Origin: Halomonas socia
Lineage (GTDB): Bacteria; Pseudomonadota; Gammaproteobacteria; Pseudomonadales; Halomonadaceae
Assembly: GCF_010977575.1 (NCBI RefSeq)
Contig: NZ_CP048812.1
Span: 3,224,001-3,288,000 of the forward strand
DNA: 64,000 bases
Reading direction: 5' to 3'
A model generated the notes under the pieces. That model searched no databases. It was not told where the DNA came from and saw only the letters and a list, made by a program, of their open reading frames with translations. A program made the translations under genes and the position numbers. How positions within the stretch are numbered: position 1 is the first letter of the stretch; each line of letters starts with the position of its first letter. Shown here piece after piece: positions 6,421 to 17,411 of the stretch.

Positions 6421-8400
6421 TCAGCCATCGAACTTCTGGCCAAGCGCCTCGCGCACCTCGGCGTAAGGCCACGCCTCCAGGGCGGCGAAGCCGTCGAACT
6501 GGCGTGCCTTGAGTTTGGTCAGCAGTGGCGTGGTCAGGCCGGTCAGGAAGCGGGTCAGCAGGTCGACGCTGGGTGCCGGTGCATCGGCGCTCTCGGCGAT
6601 GCGGTTGAGCAGCGGCTGGCACAGCGTCGCCACCTGCTGGGCGTCCAGCGGTGCTGGCGCCTCGCCGCCGGGCAACCGTGCGACCTGGCCGCGACACGCC
6701 GAGCAATGGCCGCACTGCTGCGGCGCATGAGCATCGCCGAAGTACTCGGCCAGGCGCCGGCTCAGGCACTGCTCGGACTCGAACAGCGCCAGCATCGCCT
6801 CGAGCCGGGCGATCTCGGCGCGCTCCTTGTCGCGGAAGTAGTCGAACAGCGCGTCGGCCAGGGATTCCACATCGAGATCCGGCTGGGTGATCGCATAGAC
6901 CTCGGTCATCTGCTTGCTCTCCAGCGCGATCCAGCCCTGGTCGTTGAAGTACTCCAGTGCCCGGATCACCCGCGGCCGGGCCACATCGAGGCCGCGCTCG
7001 GCGCCCAGTCGGTTGAGCGCGTCGAGGTCCAGGCTGCACCAGGTCTTGGCGCGCGGCGCCGCCTCGACGATGGCGGCGACGAAGTCGCGCCGCTCGCCGC
7101 TGAAGCGCTCGATCAGCGCCTCGGGCTCGAGCCGGTACTGAAAGCGGTACTCGGCGAAGTAGGCGTAGCGCGGCGCAATCACCCCGCGCAGCTCGAGCTG
7201 CACCAGCAGCGTCTTGAGCGGCAGCGGGCGGATATTGCTGTGCTGCGAGAGGGCATTCAGGGTGAGCTCCCACTGGCCCTGTGGGGCCGCCTCGCGAATC
7301 ACTTCCAGCACCCGCAGGATGCCGTCGCGCTCTGGGGTGTCGCCGTAGACGAAGTTCTCGAGTGCGGCCAGGGCGTCGCGACCGCCCAGCATCAGGCAGT
7401 CGGAGGGCTGGCCGTCGCGCCCGGCACGACCGATCTCTTGGCTGTAGTTCTCGATCGACTTGGGCAGGTCGACGTGCACCACGTTGCGGATATTGGCCTT
7501 GTCGATGCCCATGCCGAAAGCGATGGTGGCAACGATGCAGTTGACCTCGCCGGCCATGAACGCCTGTTGCAGGGCGTCGCGGGCCTCGCTCTGCATGCCA
7601 GCGTGGTAGGCGCGGGCGTCGATGCCGGCCTTGCTGAGGTAGGCGGCGAGCTGTTCGGCGCGTTTCTGCAGGGTGACGTAGACGATGCTCGGCTGCGGCG
7701 AGGGGCCTTCCAGGCGCGGGCGCAGCCAGTCGCGCAGGGCGCGGGCGCGCTGCTCGGCAGCCACCGGCTCGACCAGCAAATTGAGATTGGGGCGATAGAA
7801 GCCGGTCAGGGTAACGTCCTCGGCGTCGATGGCGAAGTTGGCGCGCATGTCCTCGATCACCCGCGGCGTGGCGGTGGCAGTGAGCAGCAGCGCCTGGGGA
7901 ATGCCGAACTCGCGCTGGTAGTCGGGCAGCTTGAGGTAGTCGGGGCGGAAGTTGTGGCCCCATTCCGAGAGGCAGTGGGCCTCGTCGACCACCAGCAGCG
8001 ACACCGGCACCTGGCGCAGGAAGCCGCGGAAGCGCTCGTTCTTGAGGCGCTCCACCGAGATCATCAGCACGCGAATCTCGCCGCGGCGCACGCCTTCCAT
8101 CACCGCGCTGGCCTCCTCGCGGCTCTGGCGCGAGTCGATGCTGGCGGCGGCGATGCCGTGGCGGGCCAAGAAGTCGAGCTGGTCCTGCATCAGCGCCAGC
8201 AGCGGCGACACCACCAGCGTCAGGTGCGGCAGGTGCAGCGCCGGCAGCTGGTAGCACAGCGACTTGCCGGAGCCGGTGGGGAAGATCGCCGCCGCCGAGC
8301 GGCCCGCCACCAGCGCCTCGACCACCTGGCGCTGGCCGGGACGAAAGTCGTCGTAGCCGAAGACCTGCTTGAGCGTGGTGTCGAGTGAATCGCGGGGCAT
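6421..8400 (-). CDS. recQ: RecQ-type ATP-dependent DNA helicase
   Basis: This is a 3'-5' superfamily-2 DNA helicase acting in recombination and repair. The 659-residue protein begins with DTTLKQVFGYDDFRPGQRQVV, the aromatic-rich RecQ motif 0. Walker A is FPTGSGKSLCYQLPA, and the DEAH box is LLVVDEAHCLSEWGHNFRPDY. Motif VI (YSQEIGRAGRDG) is intact. A C-terminal zinc-type cluster, QQCGHCSACRG, follows the winged-helix region. The short tail after it suggests a reduced or absent HRDC domain compared with E. coli RecQ. It is transcribed away from the Wadjet locus, with a repeat-bearing spacer of 411 bp between them. It could belong to a RecQ-like subfamily rather than be the orthologue of E. coli recQ. 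Confidence 0.88.
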   Translation of the reverse strand: MPRDSLDTTLKQVFGYDDFRPGQRQVVEALVAGRSAAAIFPTGSGKSLCYQLPALHLPHLTLVVSPLLALMQDQLDFLARHGIAAASIDSRQSREEASAVMEGVRRGEIRVLMISVERLKNERFRGFLRQVPVSLLVVDEAHCLSEWGHNFRPDYLKLPDYQREFGIPQALLLTATATPRVIEDMRANFAIDAEDVTLTGFYRPNLNLLVEPVAAEQRARALRDWLRPRLEGPSPQPSIVYVTLQKRAEQLAAYLSKAGIDARAYHAGMQSEARDALQQAFMAGEVNCIVATIAFGMGIDKANIRNVVHVDLPKSIENYSQEIGRAGRDGQPSDCLMLGGRDALAALENFVYGDTPERDGILRVLEVIREAAPQGQWELTLNALSQHSNIRPLPLKTLLVQLELRGVIAPRYAYFAEYRFQYRLEPEALIERFSGERRDFVAAIVEAAPRAKTWCSLDLDALNRLGAERGLDVARPRVIRALEYFNDQGWIALESKQMTEVYAITQPDLDVESLADALFDYFRDKERAEIARLEAMLALFESEQCLSRRLAEYFGDAHAPQQCGHCSACRGQVARLPGGEAPAPLDAQQVATLCQPLLNRIAESADAPAPSVDLLTRFLTGLTTPLLTKLKARQFDGFAALEAWPYAEVREALGQKFDG

Positions 8401-8479
8401 GGCGAGCCTCCCTGTCTGGCCAAAGCCTCTATCCTACACCGCTGGGCGCGCCTCGGCTTTGCACAACTCGGCTGGTCGT

Positions 8480-8611
8480 GGTGACCAGCCCGGGGCTGAT
8501 CCGGCGACAGCTCTGCGAGGAGGCGCTGCAAGCCGTCCCTGTGGCGGTGACCAACTCGGGGCTGATCCGGCGGCAAGCCTATTGAGGAGGCGCTGTAAAC
8601 CCATCCCTGGG
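8480..8611. repeat. Two tandem copies of a 66-bp intergenic repeat
   Basis: Copy 1 (8480-8545) and copy 2 (from 8546) share GGTGACCA, the core CGGGGCTGATCCGGCG, GAGGAGGCGCTG and a final TCCCTG in register, at an exact 66-bp period. No open frame with coding character covers it. It lies in the 411-bp spacer between recQ and jetA. The rest of the spacer holds the hairpin at 8619-8638 and no other recognised element. Confidence 0.75.
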
Positions 8612-8618
8612 CGCTACC

Positions 8619-8638
8619 TTGCGCCATCCATGGCGCAA
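8619..8638. repeat. Hairpin following the 66-bp repeats
   Basis: A perfect 8-bp stem, TTGCGCCA with TGGCGCAA, encloses a TCCA loop. It follows the end of the second 66-bp copy. No U-tract follows on either strand, so it is more likely a mobile palindrome than a terminator. Confidence 0.5.
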
Positions 8639-8811
8639 ACCTCCTCATCGGCTTACCCCCGGCGCCCCTCATGTCGCGGTGAGTAGTCGCTTATGGGAAT
8701 AGCGGCAGCACCGGCGTTGGGTAACCTTGATTGCGCCAGCTTGTCATAATCATCCATGACCCGGAGGGGTACTCCTTGGCATAATGGCGGCTTTGCCCTC
8801 AGGGAAGACCC

Positions 8812-10203
8812 ATGACCGCCTGGAGCAAGCTACTCGTCGCCACCACGCGGCTAATCGACCTGCACGACAGCGGCCACGAGCCCGGCTCGCCGTTCGTGCA
8901 GGTCAGCCAGGAGAGCCGCCGCGGACTGCGCGACGGCTACTGGCTGGACCTCGGTTGCCTGCTGCTCGACTACCTGCTCGATGTCGACTTTGCCACTAAC
9001 AGCGCCTTCGTCTCGCAGAGCCGCTGCCTGGCGCAGCTGCGCGAGACCTACCCGGACCTGCCCCACGATGACCTGAGCTTCGTCATCAACCTGCTGGCCA
9101 CCCCCAGCGAGCTGCACTTTCGCCAACTCGGCGTCGAGGATAGCGCCGCGCGCGCCTCGCGCAGCACCAAGCGCACCGCGCTGATCGAGAAGCAGGGCCA
9201 GACCGGCCAGGTGCGGCTGACCGCCAGCGGCCGCCAGGCGGTGACCCTGGCCAGCCAGGTCGAGGACCTGCTGTACTCCGAATACGATGCCGCCAAGGTG
9301 CTGGCGGCGCTGGCCCGCGGCGATTTCGCCCGGGTGCCGGATATCACCAACCAGATCCTGCTGGCGATCCGCGGGCTGACCCAGGAGCTGCGCCGGGTGC
9401 GCGAGAACCCCACCCGCGAAGGCAAGCTGGCGGCACTGCTCGACAACCAGCGCCACTATCACAACGCGCTGTCCAGCATTCAGCGCACCCTGCTCGACGC
9501 CCGCGCCCAGCTCACCGCGCCGCGGCTGATGGAGCGCTTCGCCGAGTGGCGCGAGGCCGAGCAGGCGGCCAGCGGCGAGGAGTGGGACCTGCGCATGCTG
9601 TCCAGCGCCATCGGCCGGGTGCTGACCGCCATCGAAAACCTCTCGCGGCGTCTCGCCGAGCTGCTCGCCGATATCGCCGAGGGGCGCATCCAGTCGATGG
9701 GGGTGGTCGACTTCGCCGACCTGGCTCGCGGACTGCTCAATAGCGCCCCGGCGGCGGCACTGCAGCAGGCGCTAGTGGCGCGGCTGATGCCACTGCACGT
9801 GCAGGTGGCCGTGCCACGCATGGCGCCGCTGATCCCGCTGCTGGAAACGCGACGCGCCGAGACCAGCCACGCCGCCCTGGTGTTCGACGAGCAGCACGAT
9901 GCGGCCCCCGAGGATCCGCTGCTGGCGCGCTTCCTCGAGGCCCGTGGCCCGGCGCTGCGCCAGCGCATCCAGCGCGAGCCGCTGTCGTTGCCGGCGGCGC
10001 TGGCCGAGGGCTGGCACCGCTTCGAAGAGGGCGACTGCCTGGCCCAACTGCTCAACACCTTCGTCGATACCCAATTGCTCGATGACCGCCTGGCGGTGGG
10101 CATCGACGCCACGCCGTTCGAGCTGACCCTCGATGACGGCCGATGTGTCCGCGGCGCGGTGACACCGTCACTGCGCCTCTCCGATCAGGAAGATTCGCGA
10201 TGA
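8812..10203 (+). CDS. jetA: Wadjet/Mks kleisin subunit JetA (MksF-like)
   Basis: I identify this 463-residue protein as the kleisin subunit of a Wadjet/MksBEFG complex, mainly from locus order. In the family it bridges the JetC ATPase heads and takes part in recognising closed circular DNA. The sequence begins with a winged-helix-like region and continues as long, charged helices (about 180-400) rich in Arg and Glu, as expected for a MukF-type kleisin. An AGGGAAG stands before the ATG. Its stop overlaps the jetB start by 4 bp, and all four genes overlap in the same way. It could be called mksF. The family link is weaker from sequence alone than for JetC or JetD. Confidence 0.78.
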   Translation: MTAWSKLLVATTRLIDLHDSGHEPGSPFVQVSQESRRGLRDGYWLDLGCLLLDYLLDVDFATNSAFVSQSRCLAQLRETYPDLPHDDLSFVINLLATPSELHFRQLGVEDSAARASRSTKRTALIEKQGQTGQVRLTASGRQAVTLASQVEDLLYSEYDAAKVLAALARGDFARVPDITNQILLAIRGLTQELRRVRENPTREGKLAALLDNQRHYHNALSSIQRTLLDARAQLTAPRLMERFAEWREAEQAASGEEWDLRMLSSAIGRVLTAIENLSRRLAELLADIAEGRIQSMGVVDFADLARGLLNSAPAAALQQALVARLMPLHVQVAVPRMAPLIPLLETRRAETSHAALVFDEQHDAAPEDPLLARFLEARGPALRQRIQREPLSLPAALAEGWHRFEEGDCLAQLLNTFVDTQLLDDRLAVGIDATPFELTLDDGRCVRGAVTPSLRLSDQEDSR

Positions 10204-11024
10204 ACATGAGTGAAATGGGCGAAGTGGTCGCCTACCTGCTGCGCTACCGCAGCGCCGAACGCGCCCCGGGCAGCGGTCGCAAGCGCCGTGCCGCCCGTGA
10301 GGGGCAGCTCTCCGAGCGCGATGTCTGCGCGCTGATCGATGACGCCAGCGACCTCGAGCGCGAGGCCCTGCGCGACTTCCTGGCCGGCCAGGGGCTGCGC
10401 CTCAAGGCCTTCGAGTCCGGCGACTATCCGGGCATTGCACCGGGGTCGCGCTACTACGCGCTGCTGCCCGACCCGGACCTCGAGCAGCCGCCGCTGTATA
10501 CCCGCGAGCCGGTGTTCGAGGCCCTCAAGCTGCGCCAGGAGAGCCGCGCCGAGCTGGCCCAGTGGTACCTGCAGCTGTGGCTGCTGATGCATACCCTGCT
10601 CTATACCCGCTACAACCGCGCGCTGTCGGACGTCAGCCGCTACCAGGAGGCGACCTTCGCCAGCAACGAGCTGCTCGACCTGCTGCGCGAGCAGCTCGAG
10701 GCGCTGCGCAGCTTGGGCGAGGCGGCGCCGGAGGCCAGCCGCGCGCTGCTCGACGAGCGCGGCGAAGACCTCAACCGCCGGGTGCGCGCCTTCATCGACC
10801 TGCAGGCCCGTGCCGGGCTGCTCGAGTCGCCGCGGGAAACGCTGGCCGAGGAGGGCGGCGAGGCCGGCGGCGACATCTGGCAGCAGACGCTGCTGGGCGC
10901 CCTGGAGAGCGAGCAGATCGGCCTGCACCAGCTCGGCCACCTGCAGTCGCTGGCCGAAGGGCGCCTGGCCGACGAGGCGTCACCGGAAATGGCGTCAACC
11001 GCCCACCAGGAGGCCGACGCATGA
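10200..11024 (+). CDS. jetB: Wadjet/Mks KITE subunit JetB (MksE-like)
   Basis: This 274-residue protein sits where the KITE (MukE/MksE-type) subunit is encoded in Wadjet operons. Such subunits bind the kleisin and DNA as winged-helix dimers. The protein starts MNMSEMGEVVAYLLRYRS and has helical segments. Two stretches around residues 40-140 could form winged helices (for example RDFLAGQGLRLKAFESGDYPG and YALLPDPDLEQPPLY). The ATG at 10200 overlaps the jetA stop, and its own TGA overlaps the jetC ATG, so translation is coupled on both sides. The assignment rests on size, position and general fold signs, not on a motif I can quote. Confidence 0.74.
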   Translation: MNMSEMGEVVAYLLRYRSAERAPGSGRKRRAAREGQLSERDVCALIDDASDLEREALRDFLAGQGLRLKAFESGDYPGIAPGSRYYALLPDPDLEQPPLYTREPVFEALKLRQESRAELAQWYLQLWLLMHTLLYTRYNRALSDVSRYQEATFASNELLDLLREQLEALRSLGEAAPEASRALLDERGEDLNRRVRAFIDLQARAGLLESPRETLAEEGGEAGGDIWQQTLLGALESEQIGLHQLGHLQSLAEGRLADEASPEMASTAHQEADA

Positions 11025-14000
11025 GTGTGATCAACCGTATCGAGGTCGCCAACCTGCTCAACAAGCACGGCGACATCGCCTCGCCGTGGGACGCCAAGAT
11101 GCGCCACCTGCTGCTCGACCTGCGCGGCCAGTCCAGCGCCATCAGCATGGAGAACGGCTTCGGCAAGACCACCCTGGCCGAGGCACTGATCGGCCTGCTG
11201 TCGCGGGACCGCACGCTGATCTCGCGCACCCGCCGCAAGTGCTCGCCGTCGACGGTGGCCGGCCAGGGGCGAAGCTGGAGCCATCTGCGCGTCGAGTTTC
11301 GCTCGCGCAGTGGCGGCGAGCGCCAGGAGGACATGCTCGCCGCCGCCGGCGAAGAGGTCGCCGGCGAGACCTTCGTGTTCGGCTTCTATGGCTACAGCGA
11401 CGGCAGCGGCCTGTCGTTCTACCACTACCCCGGGCGGCTCGAGGACATTCCGGTTCACCACCTGACCGCTGACGGCATGCTGGCGCTGTACGCCAACAGC
11501 GACATCAAGACCGCCATGGCCCATCGCAACGTGCGCCTGACCCACAACCGCGAGGAGTGGCTGGACGCGGTGGGTGCCCACGTGTCGCGTCGCGAGCTGG
11601 CGCAACTGGCCGCCTTCCAGAAGGAGGGCGGCGCCGACAAGAGCCAGATCTTCAACGCCATCAAGCCGCGCGGCGGCGAGAAGGCCGACCAGGCGTTCTT
11701 CTTCGAGGTGCTGGCGCCGGAGATTCTCTCTGGCGCGACCCGCGGCGAGACCGACGAGAGCGAGGAACTGATCGAGGAGGTGATCCTCAACTCCGGCACC
11801 CATATCACCGAGCTGCGCCATCGCCTCGACGAAGCCGAGAGCGACCAGCGCCGCACCGCCGACAAGGTGGCCAACCTGGCGACGCTGAGTGCCGACGGCG
11901 CTGCGCTGCTCGAGGCCCGCGAGGCCCGTGAGCGCCTCGACGATGGGCTGGCCAGCCTCGAGCGCCTGCTCGGCGGCCAGGCCTTGGCCGGTCTGCCGGG
12001 GCTGCCTCGGCAGCCGTCCGGCGACGACGTTGATGCCGCGACCCTGGCCGGCTTGGCCTGGGCGGTGGGTGACACCGGTCGGCCGCGGGTCTCGACCTGG
12101 CTGCTGGCACGGCTCAGCGGCGCCAGCGAGCGCAGCGTGCGCCAGGCGCTTTCCGAGCGTGGCGCACGGGTCGATGCCCACCGTCGGTTGATTCACCTGC
12201 CCGGCGCCGAGTGGCTGAGCGCCCGCGACCTGGGCCACGTGACCTTTGCCGCTGCCCGCGACTGGCTGGCCGAGACGCTGAGTTTCAACGACGACAGCGC
12301 GCGCCACCGCGCCTTGGAGACGCTGGACAGTACGGCCGACGCCTTCGAAGCGCTGGACGGCAACCGCTTCCGCGAAGAGGTGATCGCCGACCGCACCTAT
12401 CTCGATGAGCTGGGCCAGGACCTCGACGGCCTCGAGCAGCGGCTCGAGGGCCTCGAGCATGATCGTGAGCGCCTCGAGGGGCAGCAGCGCGAGTTCGTCG
12501 ACAACCAGAGTTTCTATACCCAGGCGCTCGCCGACGGCCTGTTCAGCGAGGCCGAGCTGGAGGCGCCGGAGCACACCGCCGAGGCCAGCCGCCGCGAGGC
12601 CGAGGAGTCGCGCCGTGCCCTCAATGCGCATCTTGGCCGCAGCGGCGAACTCAAGCAGGTGGCCGCCTGGCACGCCGAGTTCCGCCAGCGTTACCCCCAT
12701 GAAGTGCCCGCCGAGCGCCTGGCCGAGAAGCGCGAGCGCGAGGCGCTGATCGAGGAGGCCCGCGATGCCGCTGAACAGCAGCGCCAGCCGCTGGTTGAGC
12801 AGTGTCGCGCGCTGCGCAACGAGGCTGCCACCCTGCGCGACGAGCAGCAGCGCCTGGCCGGTGAGCAGGGCCTGCTCAGCCAGGGGCAGGGGCCGTGGCA
12901 GGCCTTCGTCGAGGGCTGGCCGGAGGAGGAGCCGCGCGGCTTCTGGTCGCGGCGCAAGACCCAACTGGCCGAGCTCGAGACTCGCTGCCGCGAGGCCGAG
13001 CAGCGCCAGCAGGATGCCCGGCGCGAGCAGGCGCGGCTGGCACCGCTGGCCGAGGCCGCGCGGCGCTACGCCGAGCTGCACGGCGACGACGAGCCGGTGC
13101 ACTTGCGTAGCCGCCTGCGCGAGCAGGAGCGCGAGCTGGCCGATATCGAGCACCGCCTCGCCCAGCGCGAGGCCGAGCTGCGTGAGCTGCATCAGGCACG
13201 GCTGAGCTTCGCCGAACGCAGCGAGCTGGCCCCGGCGGACTGGCTGCGCGATGCCCAGCGCCGCTACCCGCGGCTACTCAGCGAGTCGGAGTCGCTGGAT
13301 AGCGCCATCACCGAGCGCCAGCGCTACCTGGAGAGTCTGAGCGGCGACCCGCTCGAGCGCCGCGCGGTAGAAGCCGAGGCCGAGCGCCTGCTGCAACGCG
13401 AGGAGATCGCCTGGCAGCCGCTGCACGAAGTGCTCAACGCCGCGCATTGGCCCGAAGCCCAGCGCCGCGAGTGGCTGGCGCAGGCCGCCGGGGTGCTGTT
13501 CGCGCCGGTGGTCGAGGGTGAATCCCATGCCGAAGACGTCGCCGGCCTGCTGGTCGACGCCGGCCTGGCGCTGCCGGTACTCGAAGCCGGGGCGCTGACG
13601 ACGCGGCTGGAGGCCGGTCGCTCGCCGCTTGGCGCGGTACAGGGCGTCGAGACGCTGGCGGTCAAGGCGGCCCTCGACCCGCGCTATCTGGACGAGCTGC
13701 GTCAGGCCACCGAGCGGCGCCTGGCCGCCGATCGCGAGCGCCAGGTGGCACTCGAGGTCGAATGCCGGCGTCTCGATCCCCACGGCGAGGCCTACGCACT
13801 GGCGGTACGTGCGCGCCAGGCCGACGAGGCCGGGGTGGTCGCGGCGCTGGAGGCACTGGGTGCCGAGCAAGCGACGCTTGCCGAGCGCCAGGTGGCGCTG
13901 GCACCGCGCCTCAGCGATGCCGCGCTGAGCTGCATCGACGACTACCAGCGCTACCTGGAAGCCGGCGGTGAACTGGCTCTGGAGGCCGCTGCCGAGGCGG

Positions 14001-15895
14001 CACTGGCTGCCGAGAGCGAACTGGCCGAGCAACGCCCGCAGCAGGTTGATGCGCAGCAGGCGCTGGCGCGCCACGGCGAGACCTGGCTGGCGGCGGAACA
14101 GTTTGCCAACGCCGGTGGCGTCGAGCGCCTCGAGTCACTGGAGGCGCGTCTCGACGCCCTGGCCGAGGACCAGGCCGAGATCGGCGTGCGGCTGCATGAC
14201 GCCGAGGCCCAGCGTGAGACCCTCGAGCGCCGACTCAGCGAGCTCGACGCCGAGCAGCGCGGGCTATTCGCCGACGGCGAACGCGACCGGCTGCGCGCCC
14301 TGGCCGAGTTCGAGGCCGAGGGCGGCGTGGCCTTTATCGAGACCGCCGCCGAGGTGCAGGAGCAGCTCGAGACGCAGCTGGCCACTGCCAACCGTCGCGC
14401 CGACTTTTCGTTCACGCGGATCCGCGCCTACCTCGATGTACGCGATGCCGGCGGCGGCGGGCAGAAACTCGAGCGCGAGATCGCTCGGGTCAAGCGCGAG
14501 CGCGGCGAGTGCCGTGAGCAGCTCAAGGCCAAGCGCGACGAGCGTGACAGCGTCAGCGAGCGGCTGGCCGTCCAGCGCCGGGCCATGGAGTGGGTCGACC
14601 AGCTCGCCCTGGCGTGGCTGGCGGTGGTCCGCGAGCTGCCCAGCGGCTGGGAGCAGCGGCTGGCGGAGGCCGAGCCGCAGCGCGCCTGGCCCCCCGACGA
14701 CCCCGACCAGGCGACGCGTCAGGCAGCGCTGGACGACTGGTGGCGGCTGGCAGGTGACGAGGCGGCGCTGCCCGATCCGGCGGCGCTGGAGGCCTGCCAG
14801 CAGACCCTGATCGACGCGCTCCACGCGCTCAACCTCGGTGAGCGGGCACGCAACCGCGAGCGCCAGGACAAAGCGGTGCGTGCCCTCGAGCGACGCCTGG
14901 CCGAGGCGCTGGAGGGGGCCGCCCAGAGTCGTGCCTTCAGCGACACCGAGCGCGCGCGGCTGGCAGCATTGAAAGGCGTCAGCGCAGCGGCCTTGGCCGA
15001 TCTGGCGGCGCTGCACGACCAGCTCGACGCCCAGCTCGGCGAGCATCGCCAGCGCGTCGAGCGGCTGCATGCCTCCCGCGAGCAGATCGAAGGCACCCTG
15101 GTCGAGCGGCTGAGTTCGATCATTGCCGACGCCGCCGGCAATCTGGATATCCTCAAGCGCGTGGCGCGCAGCCACGGTGAGGGCGGCGCCTATTTCGAGG
15201 TCAAGGCGTCGCTGATCGACGGCGAGCCGCTGCGCGAGCTGATCACCACCCTGCTGGCGGATATCGACGAGCACCAGTTGGCACAGAAGCGCCGCGCCGA
15301 GCGCGACGGTGGCATGCCCGACGGCGATGCGCGGCGCCGCGACGATGACCTGCTGTGCCAGATTCGCCGGCGCATCTACCGCGGGCTGTTCCACGAGGTG
15401 GCGATTCGCCTCAAGCACGACGCCATCCGCCCCCACGGGCGGCTGTTCTCGCTCAATGAGGACATGTCCGAGGGCCAGCGCGAGGCGGTCTCGCTGATGT
15501 GGCTGGTCAAGCTCTCGGAGTTCGCCATCGAGCGTGAGCTGCGCGAACTGCCTGGCCACCACAAGCGCCGCGCGCGCAACAGCCGCGAGAGCGTGATCCT
15601 GCTCGACGGCCTGTTCTCCAAGCTCTCCCACCGGCGCCTGATCCAGGACTCGCTGGAGTCGCTGCGCAATACCCGCGGGCGCTTCCAGATGATCGGCCTG
15701 ATCCACAACCCCAACTACGAGAATGATCCGGCGATCTTCCCCACCTACCTGGTGGGCAGCGTGATCGGCGGCGTTCAGGGCCAGGGCGGCCACGTGATGG
15801 TACGCGACGGCCGCAGCGTGGAACCCGAGCAGCTCGGTCGCAGCGTCGGCGAAGCCAGCCTGTTCGGCATCCATGTCAGCGAGCCAGCGCAGTGA
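11021..15895 (+). CDS. jetC: Wadjet/Mks SMC-like ATPase JetC (MksB-like)
   Basis: JetC is the SMC-type motor of the complex. The 1624-residue protein has an N-terminal Walker A, MENGFGKTTL (Gly48-Lys49). About 1,200 residues of coiled coil follow, broken near the middle by a hinge-like region (about 810-900, with GVLFAPVVEGESHAEDVAG). The C-terminal head has the ABC signature MSEGQ (1482-1486) and Walker B VILLDGLF (Asp1529). Two oddities: the residue after the Walker B Asp is Gly where Glu is usual, and the protein is longer than the roughly 1,100-residue JetC I know from E. coli. The ATG at 11021 overlaps the jetB stop. A cellular MukB is unlikely because a JetD gene follows. Confidence 0.86.
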   Translation: MSVINRIEVANLLNKHGDIASPWDAKMRHLLLDLRGQSSAISMENGFGKTTLAEALIGLLSRDRTLISRTRRKCSPSTVAGQGRSWSHLRVEFRSRSGGERQEDMLAAAGEEVAGETFVFGFYGYSDGSGLSFYHYPGRLEDIPVHHLTADGMLALYANSDIKTAMAHRNVRLTHNREEWLDAVGAHVSRRELAQLAAFQKEGGADKSQIFNAIKPRGGEKADQAFFFEVLAPEILSGATRGETDESEELIEEVILNSGTHITELRHRLDEAESDQRRTADKVANLATLSADGAALLEAREARERLDDGLASLERLLGGQALAGLPGLPRQPSGDDVDAATLAGLAWAVGDTGRPRVSTWLLARLSGASERSVRQALSERGARVDAHRRLIHLPGAEWLSARDLGHVTFAAARDWLAETLSFNDDSARHRALETLDSTADAFEALDGNRFREEVIADRTYLDELGQDLDGLEQRLEGLEHDRERLEGQQREFVDNQSFYTQALADGLFSEAELEAPEHTAEASRREAEESRRALNAHLGRSGELKQVAAWHAEFRQRYPHEVPAERLAEKREREALIEEARDAAEQQRQPLVEQCRALRNEAATLRDEQQRLAGEQGLLSQGQGPWQAFVEGWPEEEPRGFWSRRKTQLAELETRCREAEQRQQDARREQARLAPLAEAARRYAELHGDDEPVHLRSRLREQERELADIEHRLAQREAELRELHQARLSFAERSELAPADWLRDAQRRYPRLLSESESLDSAITERQRYLESLSGDPLERRAVEAEAERLLQREEIAWQPLHEVLNAAHWPEAQRREWLAQAAGVLFAPVVEGESHAEDVAGLLVDAGLALPVLEAGALTTRLEAGRSPLGAVQGVETLAVKAALDPRYLDELRQATERRLAADRERQVALEVECRRLDPHGEAYALAVRARQADEAGVVAALEALGAEQATLAERQVALAPRLSDAALSCIDDYQRYLEAGGELALEAAAEAALAAESELAEQRPQQVDAQQALARHGETWLAAEQFANAGGVERLESLEARLDALAEDQAEIGVRLHDAEAQRETLERRLSELDAEQRGLFADGERDRLRALAEFEAEGGVAFIETAAEVQEQLETQLATANRRADFSFTRIRAYLDVRDAGGGGQKLEREIARVKRERGECREQLKAKRDERDSVSERLAVQRRAMEWVDQLALAWLAVVRELPSGWEQRLAEAEPQRAWPPDDPDQATRQAALDDWWRLAGDEAALPDPAALEACQQTLIDALHALNLGERARNRERQDKAVRALERRLAEALEGAAQSRAFSDTERARLAALKGVSAAALADLAALHDQLDAQLGEHRQRVERLHASREQIEGTLVERLSSIIADAAGNLDILKRVARSHGEGGAYFEVKASLIDGEPLRELITTLLADIDEHQLAQKRRAERDGGMPDGDARRRDDDLLCQIRRRIYRGLFHEVAIRLKHDAIRPHGRLFSLNEDMSEGQREAVSLMWLVKLSEFAIERELRELPGHHKRRARNSRESVILLDGLFSKLSHRRLIQDSLESLRNTRGRFQMIGLIHNPNYENDPAIFPTYLVGSVIGGVQGQGGHVMVRDGRSVEPEQLGRSVGEASLFGIHVSEPAQ

Positions 15896-17019
15896 CCGGA
15901 GTCGGCCAGGGCCAGCCGCCGGGACTGAGTGAGCCAGCGCGCAGGGTGCTGGCGGAACTCGAGTCCCAGTGGTGTCAGCATTTCCTCAAAGGGCGGCATC
16001 GACGCTGGCAGGTCCGGCCGCTGGTGACGCGTATCGTGGCGTTGGGCATCTGCGCCACACAGCTCGAGGCGCGTCAGTGCCTCGAAGAACTGGATCGTGC
16101 CGAAATGCTGGAGGTAGCGCAGGGGGTCAGTCTTTCGCCGCTGCTCCAGCTCAACCCGCGCATCGGCCTAGCGGAGCAGCGCTGCGTGCAGCTTGCCGAG
16201 TCGCTGCCGGTGGCGAACCCCGATCTGGCCTTGACGCCTCAGCAGACGGCCTGCTGGAATCGTGCCCTGGCAGGGGGCTTGGATGGCTGGTCGCTGGTCG
16301 ATCAGCATCGTCTGGTGGCAGGGTTGCGAGCGCTCTCCAGGGCACTGCCCGAAGGCTATCGCCTCAGTCGTTACGCGGCCAGTGCGCGCTATCTCCTTGC
16401 TAGCAGCAAGCTCTTGGATCGCCTGCCCAATGACCTGCTGCATGCATTTGACATCGAACCTAAGCTGTTCTGCCAGCCGGATGCCTGGCTGTTGGCGAGC
16501 ATGCCCAAGGCGCCAGACAGCGTGTTGCTGATTGAGAACCCTCAGAGCTACATGCAGGCCATGCGAGTCGGATTGGACCGACGAATAGCCTTGATATGCA
16601 GCTTTGGCTATGGGCTCTCGCTGGGGGAAGCTTTGGCTGGCGTCGAGCGGGTGAGGCTGGTAGGGGAGTGCGAGCTACCGCTGACACTCAGTGAGTTGCT
16701 TGCCTTGCCCCATCTGACGTATTGGGGTGATCTAGACCCCGAAGGCTTGCGGATATTCCGACGTTTGGCAGGCCGCCTGCCGCACTTGAGAATGTCGGCG
16801 CTTTACGCGCCTATGATCGATACCCTCGAGCGGTCTGGCGGTCATCCCCTGCATAAGGTCACCGGCAAGGCGGGCCAGTCGGCCGGCGTTGGCTGGGCGC
16901 GAGGCGTGGACCAGGAGTGTCTGGATGACGCCACGTTGCAGACGCTGGCAGGAGTCCCCCTCGATAGCCAACGGCAACGCCGCTGGCTCGGGTATATCGA
17001 ACCGTCGGGAGGTACATGA
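15892..17019 (+). CDS. jetD: Wadjet TOPRIM-type nuclease subunit JetD (DUF2220)
   Basis: JetD is the effector nuclease that cleaves plasmid DNA held by JetABC in known Wadjet systems. The 375-residue protein has an N-terminal helical part (about 1-180) and a C-terminal TOPRIM-like DUF2220 domain. The catalytic acids are visible as Glu215 in LLIENPQSY and as Asp280 and Asp282 in YWGDLDPEGLRIF. The start is GTG at 15892, overlapping the jetC stop by 4 bp. The second half (about 16380-16750) looks less GC-biased than jetA-C, which may reflect separate ancestry. Its presence is the main evidence that the locus is a defence system and not a housekeeping condensin. Confidence 0.88.
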   Translation: MTGVGQGQPPGLSEPARRVLAELESQWCQHFLKGRHRRWQVRPLVTRIVALGICATQLEARQCLEELDRAEMLEVAQGVSLSPLLQLNPRIGLAEQRCVQLAESLPVANPDLALTPQQTACWNRALAGGLDGWSLVDQHRLVAGLRALSRALPEGYRLSRYAASARYLLASSKLLDRLPNDLLHAFDIEPKLFCQPDAWLLASMPKAPDSVLLIENPQSYMQAMRVGLDRRIALICSFGYGLSLGEALAGVERVRLVGECELPLTLSELLALPHLTYWGDLDPEGLRIFRRLAGRLPHLRMSALYAPMIDTLERSGGHPLHKVTGKAGQSAGVGWARGVDQECLDDATLQTLAGVPLDSQRQRRWLGYIEPSGGT

Positions 17020-17411
17020 TGGCGATCTACGGCGTTGGCGACAGCACCTTGCAGGCGCTGGGCGACGAGGCGGCGGTGGCCGCACTCGTCGAGCGCTTCT
17101 ATGCGGCGATGCAGCGGTTGCCAGAGGCGCAGAGGATTCGTGCCATGCATCCCGCCGATCTCGGCGAGGCGCAAGACAAGCTAACTACCTTCCTGATCGG
17201 CTGGATGGGCGGCCCCAAGCGCTACCGCGAGCGCTTCGGGCCGATCAGCATCCCCGGGGCGCATCGCCACCTGGATATTGGCCCCGAGGAGCGCGATGCT
17301 TGGCTTCTATGCATGGCAACGGCGCTCGACGAGCAGGGCGTCGACGCCGAGCTCAAGACCTACCTGCTGGCCCAGCTGCGCCACCCGGCGGAGATGTGTC
17401 GACAGCACTGA
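17019..17411 (+). CDS. Group II truncated haemoglobin
   Basis: This 130-residue protein resembles group II truncated haemoglobins (YjbI/GlbO type), which bind haem and O2 or NO. Seen: the N-terminal GDEAAVAALVERFYAAM helix, the middle KLTTFLIGWMGGPKRYRERFG, and the proximal-His segment GAHRHLDIGPEERDAWLLCM with the conserved Trp. The ATG at 17016 overlaps the jetD stop; the second ATG at 17019 has better spacing from GGGAGG (6 nt) and is preferred here. The overlap couples it to the Wadjet operon, which is unusual. Whether it works with the defence system or is only a passenger is not known. Confidence 0.82.
   Translation: MAIYGVGDSTLQALGDEAAVAALVERFYAAMQRLPEAQRIRAMHPADLGEAQDKLTTFLIGWMGGPKRYRERFGPISIPGAHRHLDIGPEERDAWLLCMATALDEQGVDAELKTYLLAQLRHPAEMCRQH

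Follow-up and report, generated by a model that had tools for sequence, protein, structure and literature searches.

The 64,000-nucleotide stretch of the Halomonas socia genome analysed here (contig NZ_CP048812.1, positions 3,224,001 to 3,288,000; hereafter the window) carries on its forward strand, at 8812-17019, an operon of four genes that we call A, B, C and D. A preliminary description, made from the sequence alone, took this operon for a complete Wadjet defence system. The coordinates of the open reading frames (ORFs) confirm the jetABCD order that it gave, the overlap of the four genes and the 4-bp length of all three joints (Table 1); the fixed stoichiometry that it derived from these overlaps remains conjecture, the joint with D being variable among loci (C-D spacing of -26 to +5 in the loci that carry D, with start codons chosen by script). 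The A-B-C trio recurs in related genomes, mostly of Halomonadaceae, whose aligned proteins are 39-99% identical to those of the window, so that the operon is more than a product of chance. Its host genome is a single contig of 4.75 Mb.

Table 1. Coordinates of the operon and of its flanking features in the window
Feature	Position	Strand	Description	Basis
Gene A	8812..10203	+	MukF/JetA-like kleisin, 463 aa	ORF, AF2 model, relatives; no family match
Gene B	10200..11024	+	possible KITE (MukE/JetB-like), 274 aa	ORF, weak AF2 model match, relatives
Gene C	11021..15895	+	SMC-like ATPase, 1624 aa	motifs and N-head profile match
Gene D	15892..17019	+	JetD/MksG-type TOPRIM nuclease, 375 aa, GTG start	PF09983, PADLOC JetD1
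RecQ-family helicase gene	6421..8400	-	divergent flank, site marker	PF16124 and RecQ family models
Bacterial-like (truncated) globin gene	17016..17411	+	flank	PF01152, 4.4e-28
Promoter-like hexamers ATGACC-18-CATAAT, extended -10	8756..8785	+	before gene A	consensus match only

The four gene products

The product of D is a JetD of the TOPRIM type, as previously described: it scores above the Pfam cut-off for JetD_C (PF09983, E 2.6e-7), which upholds the DUF2220 assignment, and matches the PADLOC model JetD1 (2.2e-12). The Pfam match covers its C-terminal part only, and no N-terminal JetD domain was reported. Glu215, Asp280 and Asp282, correctly numbered in the preliminary description, are invariant in all 22 aligned D proteins, a set that includes the window and also the Halomonas beimenensis locus L066, frame-broken further downstream. 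In the latter (L066:15245-16381) D falls into two frames towards its end, and the nuclease looks disrupted. By profile comparison, D comes closest to JetD proteins from a single subgroup of type I (98.4% probability); against solved structures the D profile gives only weak matches to MksG (8b7f, E 0.028) and JetD (8q72, E 0.52). Searches of the solved structures with the C and D sequences, and with the profiles of A to D, returned nothing both significant and relevant.

C appears, from its sequence motifs, to be a structural maintenance of chromosomes (SMC)-like ATPase. The P-loop NGFGKTT (residues 45-51) lies at one end of the protein, the MSEGQ signature (1482-1486) and the Walker B motif LLDG (D1529-G1530) at the other. 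In ABC-ATPases the glutamate of Walker B is needed for efficient hydrolysis. In C this catalytic residue is replaced by a glycine, in 67 of 67 related loci as well as in the window, in the window's partial copy (L001) and in both distant relatives; at the opposite, Walker B reads DE in 18 of 18 comparators, namely L101, MukB of Escherichia coli and 16 proteins at the JetC position of loci grouped as type I, seven of which were typed via JetA by PADLOC. The MksB of L116 and the type II SMC of L128 also have DE. Either a substitute base takes the place of this residue in C, or the complex acts chiefly as an ATP-dependent clamp; ATP turnover without the Walker-B glutamate is the least understood point of the operon. 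If ABC is active, the invariant loss of this residue would call into question the current view of how SMC ATPases cycle.

The family models recognise C poorly. It gives two weak matches only (ATG16 and a TrlF-family ATPase), far under the curated cut-offs, and none to SMC_prok_B (TIGR02168) of Smc-ScpAB; the SMC of the genome itself is encoded elsewhere (TIGR02168, 1061.8 bits). The only C-profile match under 0.001, to the myosin-fragment chimera 4xa6 (E 6.7e-4), falls midway along C and was discounted as a coiled-coil match, and the weak PADLOC JetC3 matches (at most 34.5 bits) seen in 20 of 209 genomes were likewise taken as coiled coil.

The start of C is duplicated in some loci. At the B/C junction of L019, L020, L022 and L066, all of which carry D, one to about three extra tandem copies of about 184-186 bp are found, each made of the last codons of B and the first ~50 codons of C, ending just past the P-loop and having its own ATGA overlap; the copy number varies between species. 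Four genomes (G035, G072, G075 and G076) have an extra match to residues 1-55 of C next to C.

A and B have no match in PADLOC (at 1e-3), Pfam or NCBIfam, so that the profile search against the Wadjet types proposed in the preliminary description recognises D (JetD1) and none of A, B and C at this threshold. The AlphaFold2 (AF2) model of A (mean predicted local distance difference test, pLDDT, 64.7; predicted TM-score 0.38) matches best MukF of MukBEF (7nz2, Foldseek E 9e-4, probability 0.96), then JetA of JetABCD (8q72, E 2.7e-3), two further times MukF (E 5.6e-3 and 0.016) and, in fifth place, JetABC of Pseudomonas aeruginosa (E 0.042). Taken over the whole chain the TM-scores are low (0.13-0.18 by query length), and it is the local scores of Foldseek that carry the match; this match supports a kleisin-like fold for the modelled A. 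For the model of B (pLDDT 74.1) no structure came under 0.001: a replication terminator protein ranks first (E 0.17), followed by chain 9qe0_D of a Wadjet-II JetABC (E 0.35, TM-score by query length 0.40) and MukE-MukF (3rpu, E 0.35). Among the subunit identities previously proposed, a kleisin-like A and an SMC-like C are thus sustained, while a KITE-like B is plausible only.

Distribution of D and of MksBEF

The gene D is repeatedly present and absent behind an A-B-C trio that stays. Among 67 related loci gathered in one public scan, 21 have D behind C and 46 lack it, the nearest relatives of the window among them. In the GTDB family of the window, 275 genomes give a similar picture: C occurs in 80, and 24 of these 80 have a strong D, in all cases directly beside C. 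Counting any match to the D profile, the number rises to 30 genomes, with a remnant beside C in G057 and five weak matches of ~30 residues; in one of these five (G156) C lies on another contig.

Close relatives, among them many named isolates, differ in D on nearly identical ABC, as do the window and L002, or L064 and L058, two strains of Salinicola salarius. The other four genomes of the window's genus have C and no D; in the D-less sister L002, whose C is 97% identical to that of the window, the globin gene immediately follows C, as it does in the D-minus sisters generally. The D-less junctions of L002, L003 and L023 are homologous to one another, and L002 is the sister of the window; a gain or regain of D is therefore likely in the window's genus. 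Loss is documented too, by a decayed remnant of the D C-terminus lying in two frames behind C in L036; the G057 remnant is the same. On a tree of 70 C proteins—a quick tree, which warns of long basal branches—the D state changes 13 times, or 12 times when only well-supported branches are counted. Searched in 369 class-wide genomes, the C profile gave, besides the window, two clear matches (G623 and G580) and a weak one (G465). The two distant relatives so found (L081 and L082) carry A, B, C and D, which indicates that the four-gene form is old. In 21 of the 22 loci with D, this gene is poorer in GC than C, and a foreign origin of D was considered on this ground; by eye, however, the tree of D resembles that of C, with a poorly supported placement of the window's D, and this origin is left open.

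Selection on A, B and C is purifying also where D is missing: the ratio of nonsynonymous to synonymous substitution rates (dN/dS) of A-C is 0.05-0.16 in the D-less pairs L002/L003, L002/L023, L003/L023, L008/L027, L009/L031 and L032/L033. Four pairs (L006/L013, L013/L039, L015/L051 and L020/L022) show 0.20-0.25 for D against 0.05-0.16 for A-C; in L006/L025 D is not less constrained (0.15 against 0.14-0.21), and the near-identical L041 pairs were uninformative. C is full length in 45 of the 46 D-less loci, the exception being the seemingly broken C of Salinicola tamaricis (L060). In G110, C is in two pieces (G110:C1:2186281-2191184).

The same 275 genomes show that the operon and the MksBEF condensin almost never meet. 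With MksB scored positive at E<1e-50 for PF12128, some of the matches being fragments, 140 genomes have MksB and 80 have C, 57 have neither and two (G107 and G109) have both, against 40.7 expected (Fisher p 2e-28, shared ancestry ignored). Fourteen genomes with a PF12128 match weaker than 1e-50 were scored negative, ten of them C-positive (E 1e-7 to 1e-3). G107 and G109 carry a divergent MksB that shares ~25% identity with the common one, and without these two genomes none holds both C and MksB. In these only two C-plus genomes with a strong MksB match, a second, divergent MksBEF lies at L120:2694-8343 and L121:4750-10490. C-type and MksB-type genomes are found together within five genera (g3, g5, g7, g14 and g15), which speaks for repeated switching. 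The ordinary SMC is present in all 22 genomes tested (12 with C, 10 with MksB) and in the window's own genome.

The two complexes also share a site. The preliminary description had proposed to compare the recQ-globin junction in related genomes; in those where this was done, the interval holds ABCD (window), ABC (e.g. L002) or MksBEF (L114 and L117), or is empty, the two genes being adjacent with nothing between them (L119). Four genomes of Chromohalobacter-like bacteria that lack C (G007, G008, G011 and G012) have next to recQ a gene for a BCCT transporter and a strong match to MksB; the globin gene lies on the far side in L114 and L117, and none was found at this place in L115 and L116. In L116 the genes run in the order SMC-KITE-kleisin, with MksB (PF12128, E 2e-221), MksE (PF21980, E 1.6e-9) and, at the MksF position, a 419-aa product of no clear family; no nuclease was found among the five genes tested with family models in L116, the only genome so tested. 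MksBEF is located away from recQ in G003 and G030, so that the exclusion is not only a competition for one site.

As to the operon's own surroundings, recQ lies upstream of A in 33 of 67 loci, some of the fetched stretches ending at contig ends. The promoter-like hexamers before A are found once by the consensus scan, against a mean of 0.0 in shuffled sequences, and a stretch resembling them precedes A in the spacers of L002, L003 and L023, as read by eye. The recQ-A spacer of the window contains two near-copies of a repeat (8475-8712) that has no further copy in the window, and ~164 bp of this spacer are inverted relative to the sister L002, with shorter inverted pieces in L003 and L023. A replaced promoter region, suspected from a global alignment, was dismissed: the local alignment shows a repeat-rich spacer, partly inverted, whose A-proximal end is conserved. 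An origin from a mobile element was also rejected, with no tRNA gene in the window and no phage record with A. Two plasmid records, both of P. aeruginosa, contain a partial C relative; on pPUV-6 (L129:8031-10798, 37% over residues 1390-1577) it is followed by a gene annotated as a Wadjet JetD domain protein, and a Tn3 transposase gene lies upstream.

Condensin, defence, or one becoming the other

The near-absence of ABC together with MksBEF suggests that the two complexes can stand in for each other. We favour, with a probability of about 60%, a reading in which ABC serves as an accessory condensin of the chromosome that can be exchanged for MksBEF, and turns into a Wadjet-like plasmid cutter where D is present. 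A, B and C would form a divergent kleisin-KITE-SMC complex of the MukBEF/MksBEF/JetABC kind, and its conserved job would most likely be that of a second condensin beside the ordinary SMC. MksBEF itself is reported to contribute to chromosome organisation in P. aeruginosa (PMC10586767 and PMC7485682). D would be an add-on JetD nuclease, present in some lineages including that of the window; with it, ABC would capture DNA and, on meeting a small closed circle, let D cut, as in Wadjet. We infer all these steps for the operon from what is established for Wadjet and MksBEF—assembly, capture, circle sensing, cleavage and the organisation of the chromosome. The complete Wadjet of the preliminary description is retained in part: the four-gene order and JetD agree with it; A-C, recognised as no Wadjet type, and an SMC without its catalytic glutamate do not, and as stated it conflicts with the absence of D from most related loci and the near-exclusivity with MksBEF.

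Several points weigh against a condensin that acquires a nuclease. The exclusivity test takes no account of shared ancestry. The 57 genomes with neither complex, some of them incomplete, indicate that neither is indispensable. The assignment of B as a KITE is weak. The DG Walker B, as read from the sequence, argues against an ordinary ATP-driven motor, and the window's D may be re-gained rather than a retained ancestral gene. A broader account, which we put forward more tentatively, would be that of an old four-gene Wadjet-like machine whose ABC has been retained in the place of MksBEF while the nuclease appears and disappears, and whose SMC ATPase does without the canonical Walker-B glutamate, through an ATP-locked clamp or a substitute base; a switch between defence and condensin would then be caught repeatedly.

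A divergent Wadjet serving purely for defence, in which the copies without D would be remnants in decay or rely on a nuclease from another place in the genome, seems to us unlikely. D is a genuine JetD by the models, with its catalytic residues kept and in the Wadjet gene order, and the distant relatives keep it; defence genes are often lost. However, purifying selection on A-C is similar with and without D, and C is full length in nearly all D-less loci. The position of D also speaks against borrowing, most D-matching genomes (24 of 30) having their strong D beside C, with the remaining six reduced to the G057 remnant and five weak matches, in a search that did not cover JetD of other families in D-less genomes; G156, with C on another contig, leaves a distant trans nuclease possible in that genome. 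Besides, the exclusivity with MksBEF would have no explanation. This last objection applies also to a reading that we find less probable still, in which ABC restricts plasmids without cutting, by compacting or silencing their circles like Smc5/6 on extrachromosomal DNA, and D only strengthens the effect: it does not predict the MksBEF exclusivity, though it accounts for the constraint on ABC where D is missing, the DG Walker B would suit an ATP-locked clamp, and PMC10586767 provides the Smc5/6 precedent.

That A-C are simply orthologues of MukBEF is highly improbable, and this orthology was rejected on Pfam and profile comparison. The same gene order, similar sizes and the best match of the A model to MukF would suit it. 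Nevertheless no match to PF04310, PF03882 or PF04288 exists in A-C, PF04310 is absent from the whole genome, and the profile comparison with single E. coli sequences gives 10% for MukB and less than 5% for MukF and MukE, where the MukB of L101 reaches 99.9% by the same method.

A 2023 review treats as unsettled where Wadjet comes from and how it is related to the other SMC complexes (PMC10586767). With close relatives that differ in D, and with ABC and MksBEF alternating within a genus, the question of defence or condensin becomes directly testable here. We found no description of this operon family, nor of a Halomonas condensin, among open-licence PMC papers, which is no proof of absence.

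Comparison with known systems

For the comparison, loci were fetched around JetD_C matches in Gammaproteobacteria and ten JetA-position proteins were typed by PADLOC: seven are JetA1, and those of L101, L081 and L082 have no match. The remaining loci were sorted into three groups by gene layout, not typed singly, and most of the alignments are shallow (1-6 sequences). The three JetC groups find one another at 96-99.9% probability. Against JetC group Ia, the two head halves give 95% and 60% for MukB of E. coli, 86% and 0.2% for MksB, and 94% and 0.3% for C, the 94% covering residues 31-73 only; these values place C at roughly the same distance from type I JetC as MksB. Against the profiles of the type I groups, MukB and MksB, C aligns only over the P-loop or the coiled coil, and A and B give no signal against the type I locus groups, MukF and MukE of E. 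coli, or MksF and MksE. On these sequence comparisons, A-C make up a separate, narrow lineage.

With type I Wadjet (JetABCD, or MksBEFG) the operon shares the gene order, which reads kleisin-KITE-SMC-nuclease if B is a KITE, the overlapping genes and a TOPRIM JetD with its E and DxD residues. It differs in that A-C are missed by the Wadjet models and cannot be aligned with the three type I groups beyond the P-loop or coiled coil, in the length of the SMC (1624 aa against 1119-1231), in its DG instead of DE Walker B, and in the lack of D in 46 of 67 loci. Moreover no IFDR motif was read by eye at the N-terminus of B; in type I Wadjet, this JetB motif contacts JetD (PMC10586767). The likeness to type II is limited to the weak resemblance of the B model to one chain in the Wadjet-II JetABC dimer of Neobacillus vireti: no profile signal was obtained against the one type II locus compared (L128, single sequences), whose SMC differs by its DE. 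For type III, the PADLOC models—the sole comparison made—gave no match in A-C.

MukBEF resembles the operon by its order F-E-B, the kleisin-like model of A and the similar sizes (MukF 440, MukE 234 and MukB 1486 aa), and departs from it by the Muk domains, of which A-C have no match. A MukBEF with a Wadjet-type nuclease was met among the comparison loci: in the gammaproteobacterial genome G584, MukF, MukE and MukB, identified by Pfam (PF17192, PF04288 and PF04310; L101:6342-13739), are directly followed by a JetD-like gene (PF09983, E 1.6e-6).

MksBEF (DUF3584; PF12128 and PF21980) is unlike the operon in sequence, with no detectable relation (no PF12128 or PF21980 match in B and C, hhalign at most 3.8%), in its order SMC-KITE-kleisin, in an MksB ORF of ~1240 aa with a DE Walker B, and in having no D match in the MksB loci examined. 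On the other hand, it is, like ABC in our reading, a nuclease-less kleisin-KITE-SMC operon, chromosomal and standing beside an ordinary SMC, and in two relatives it occupies the same recQ-globin interval.

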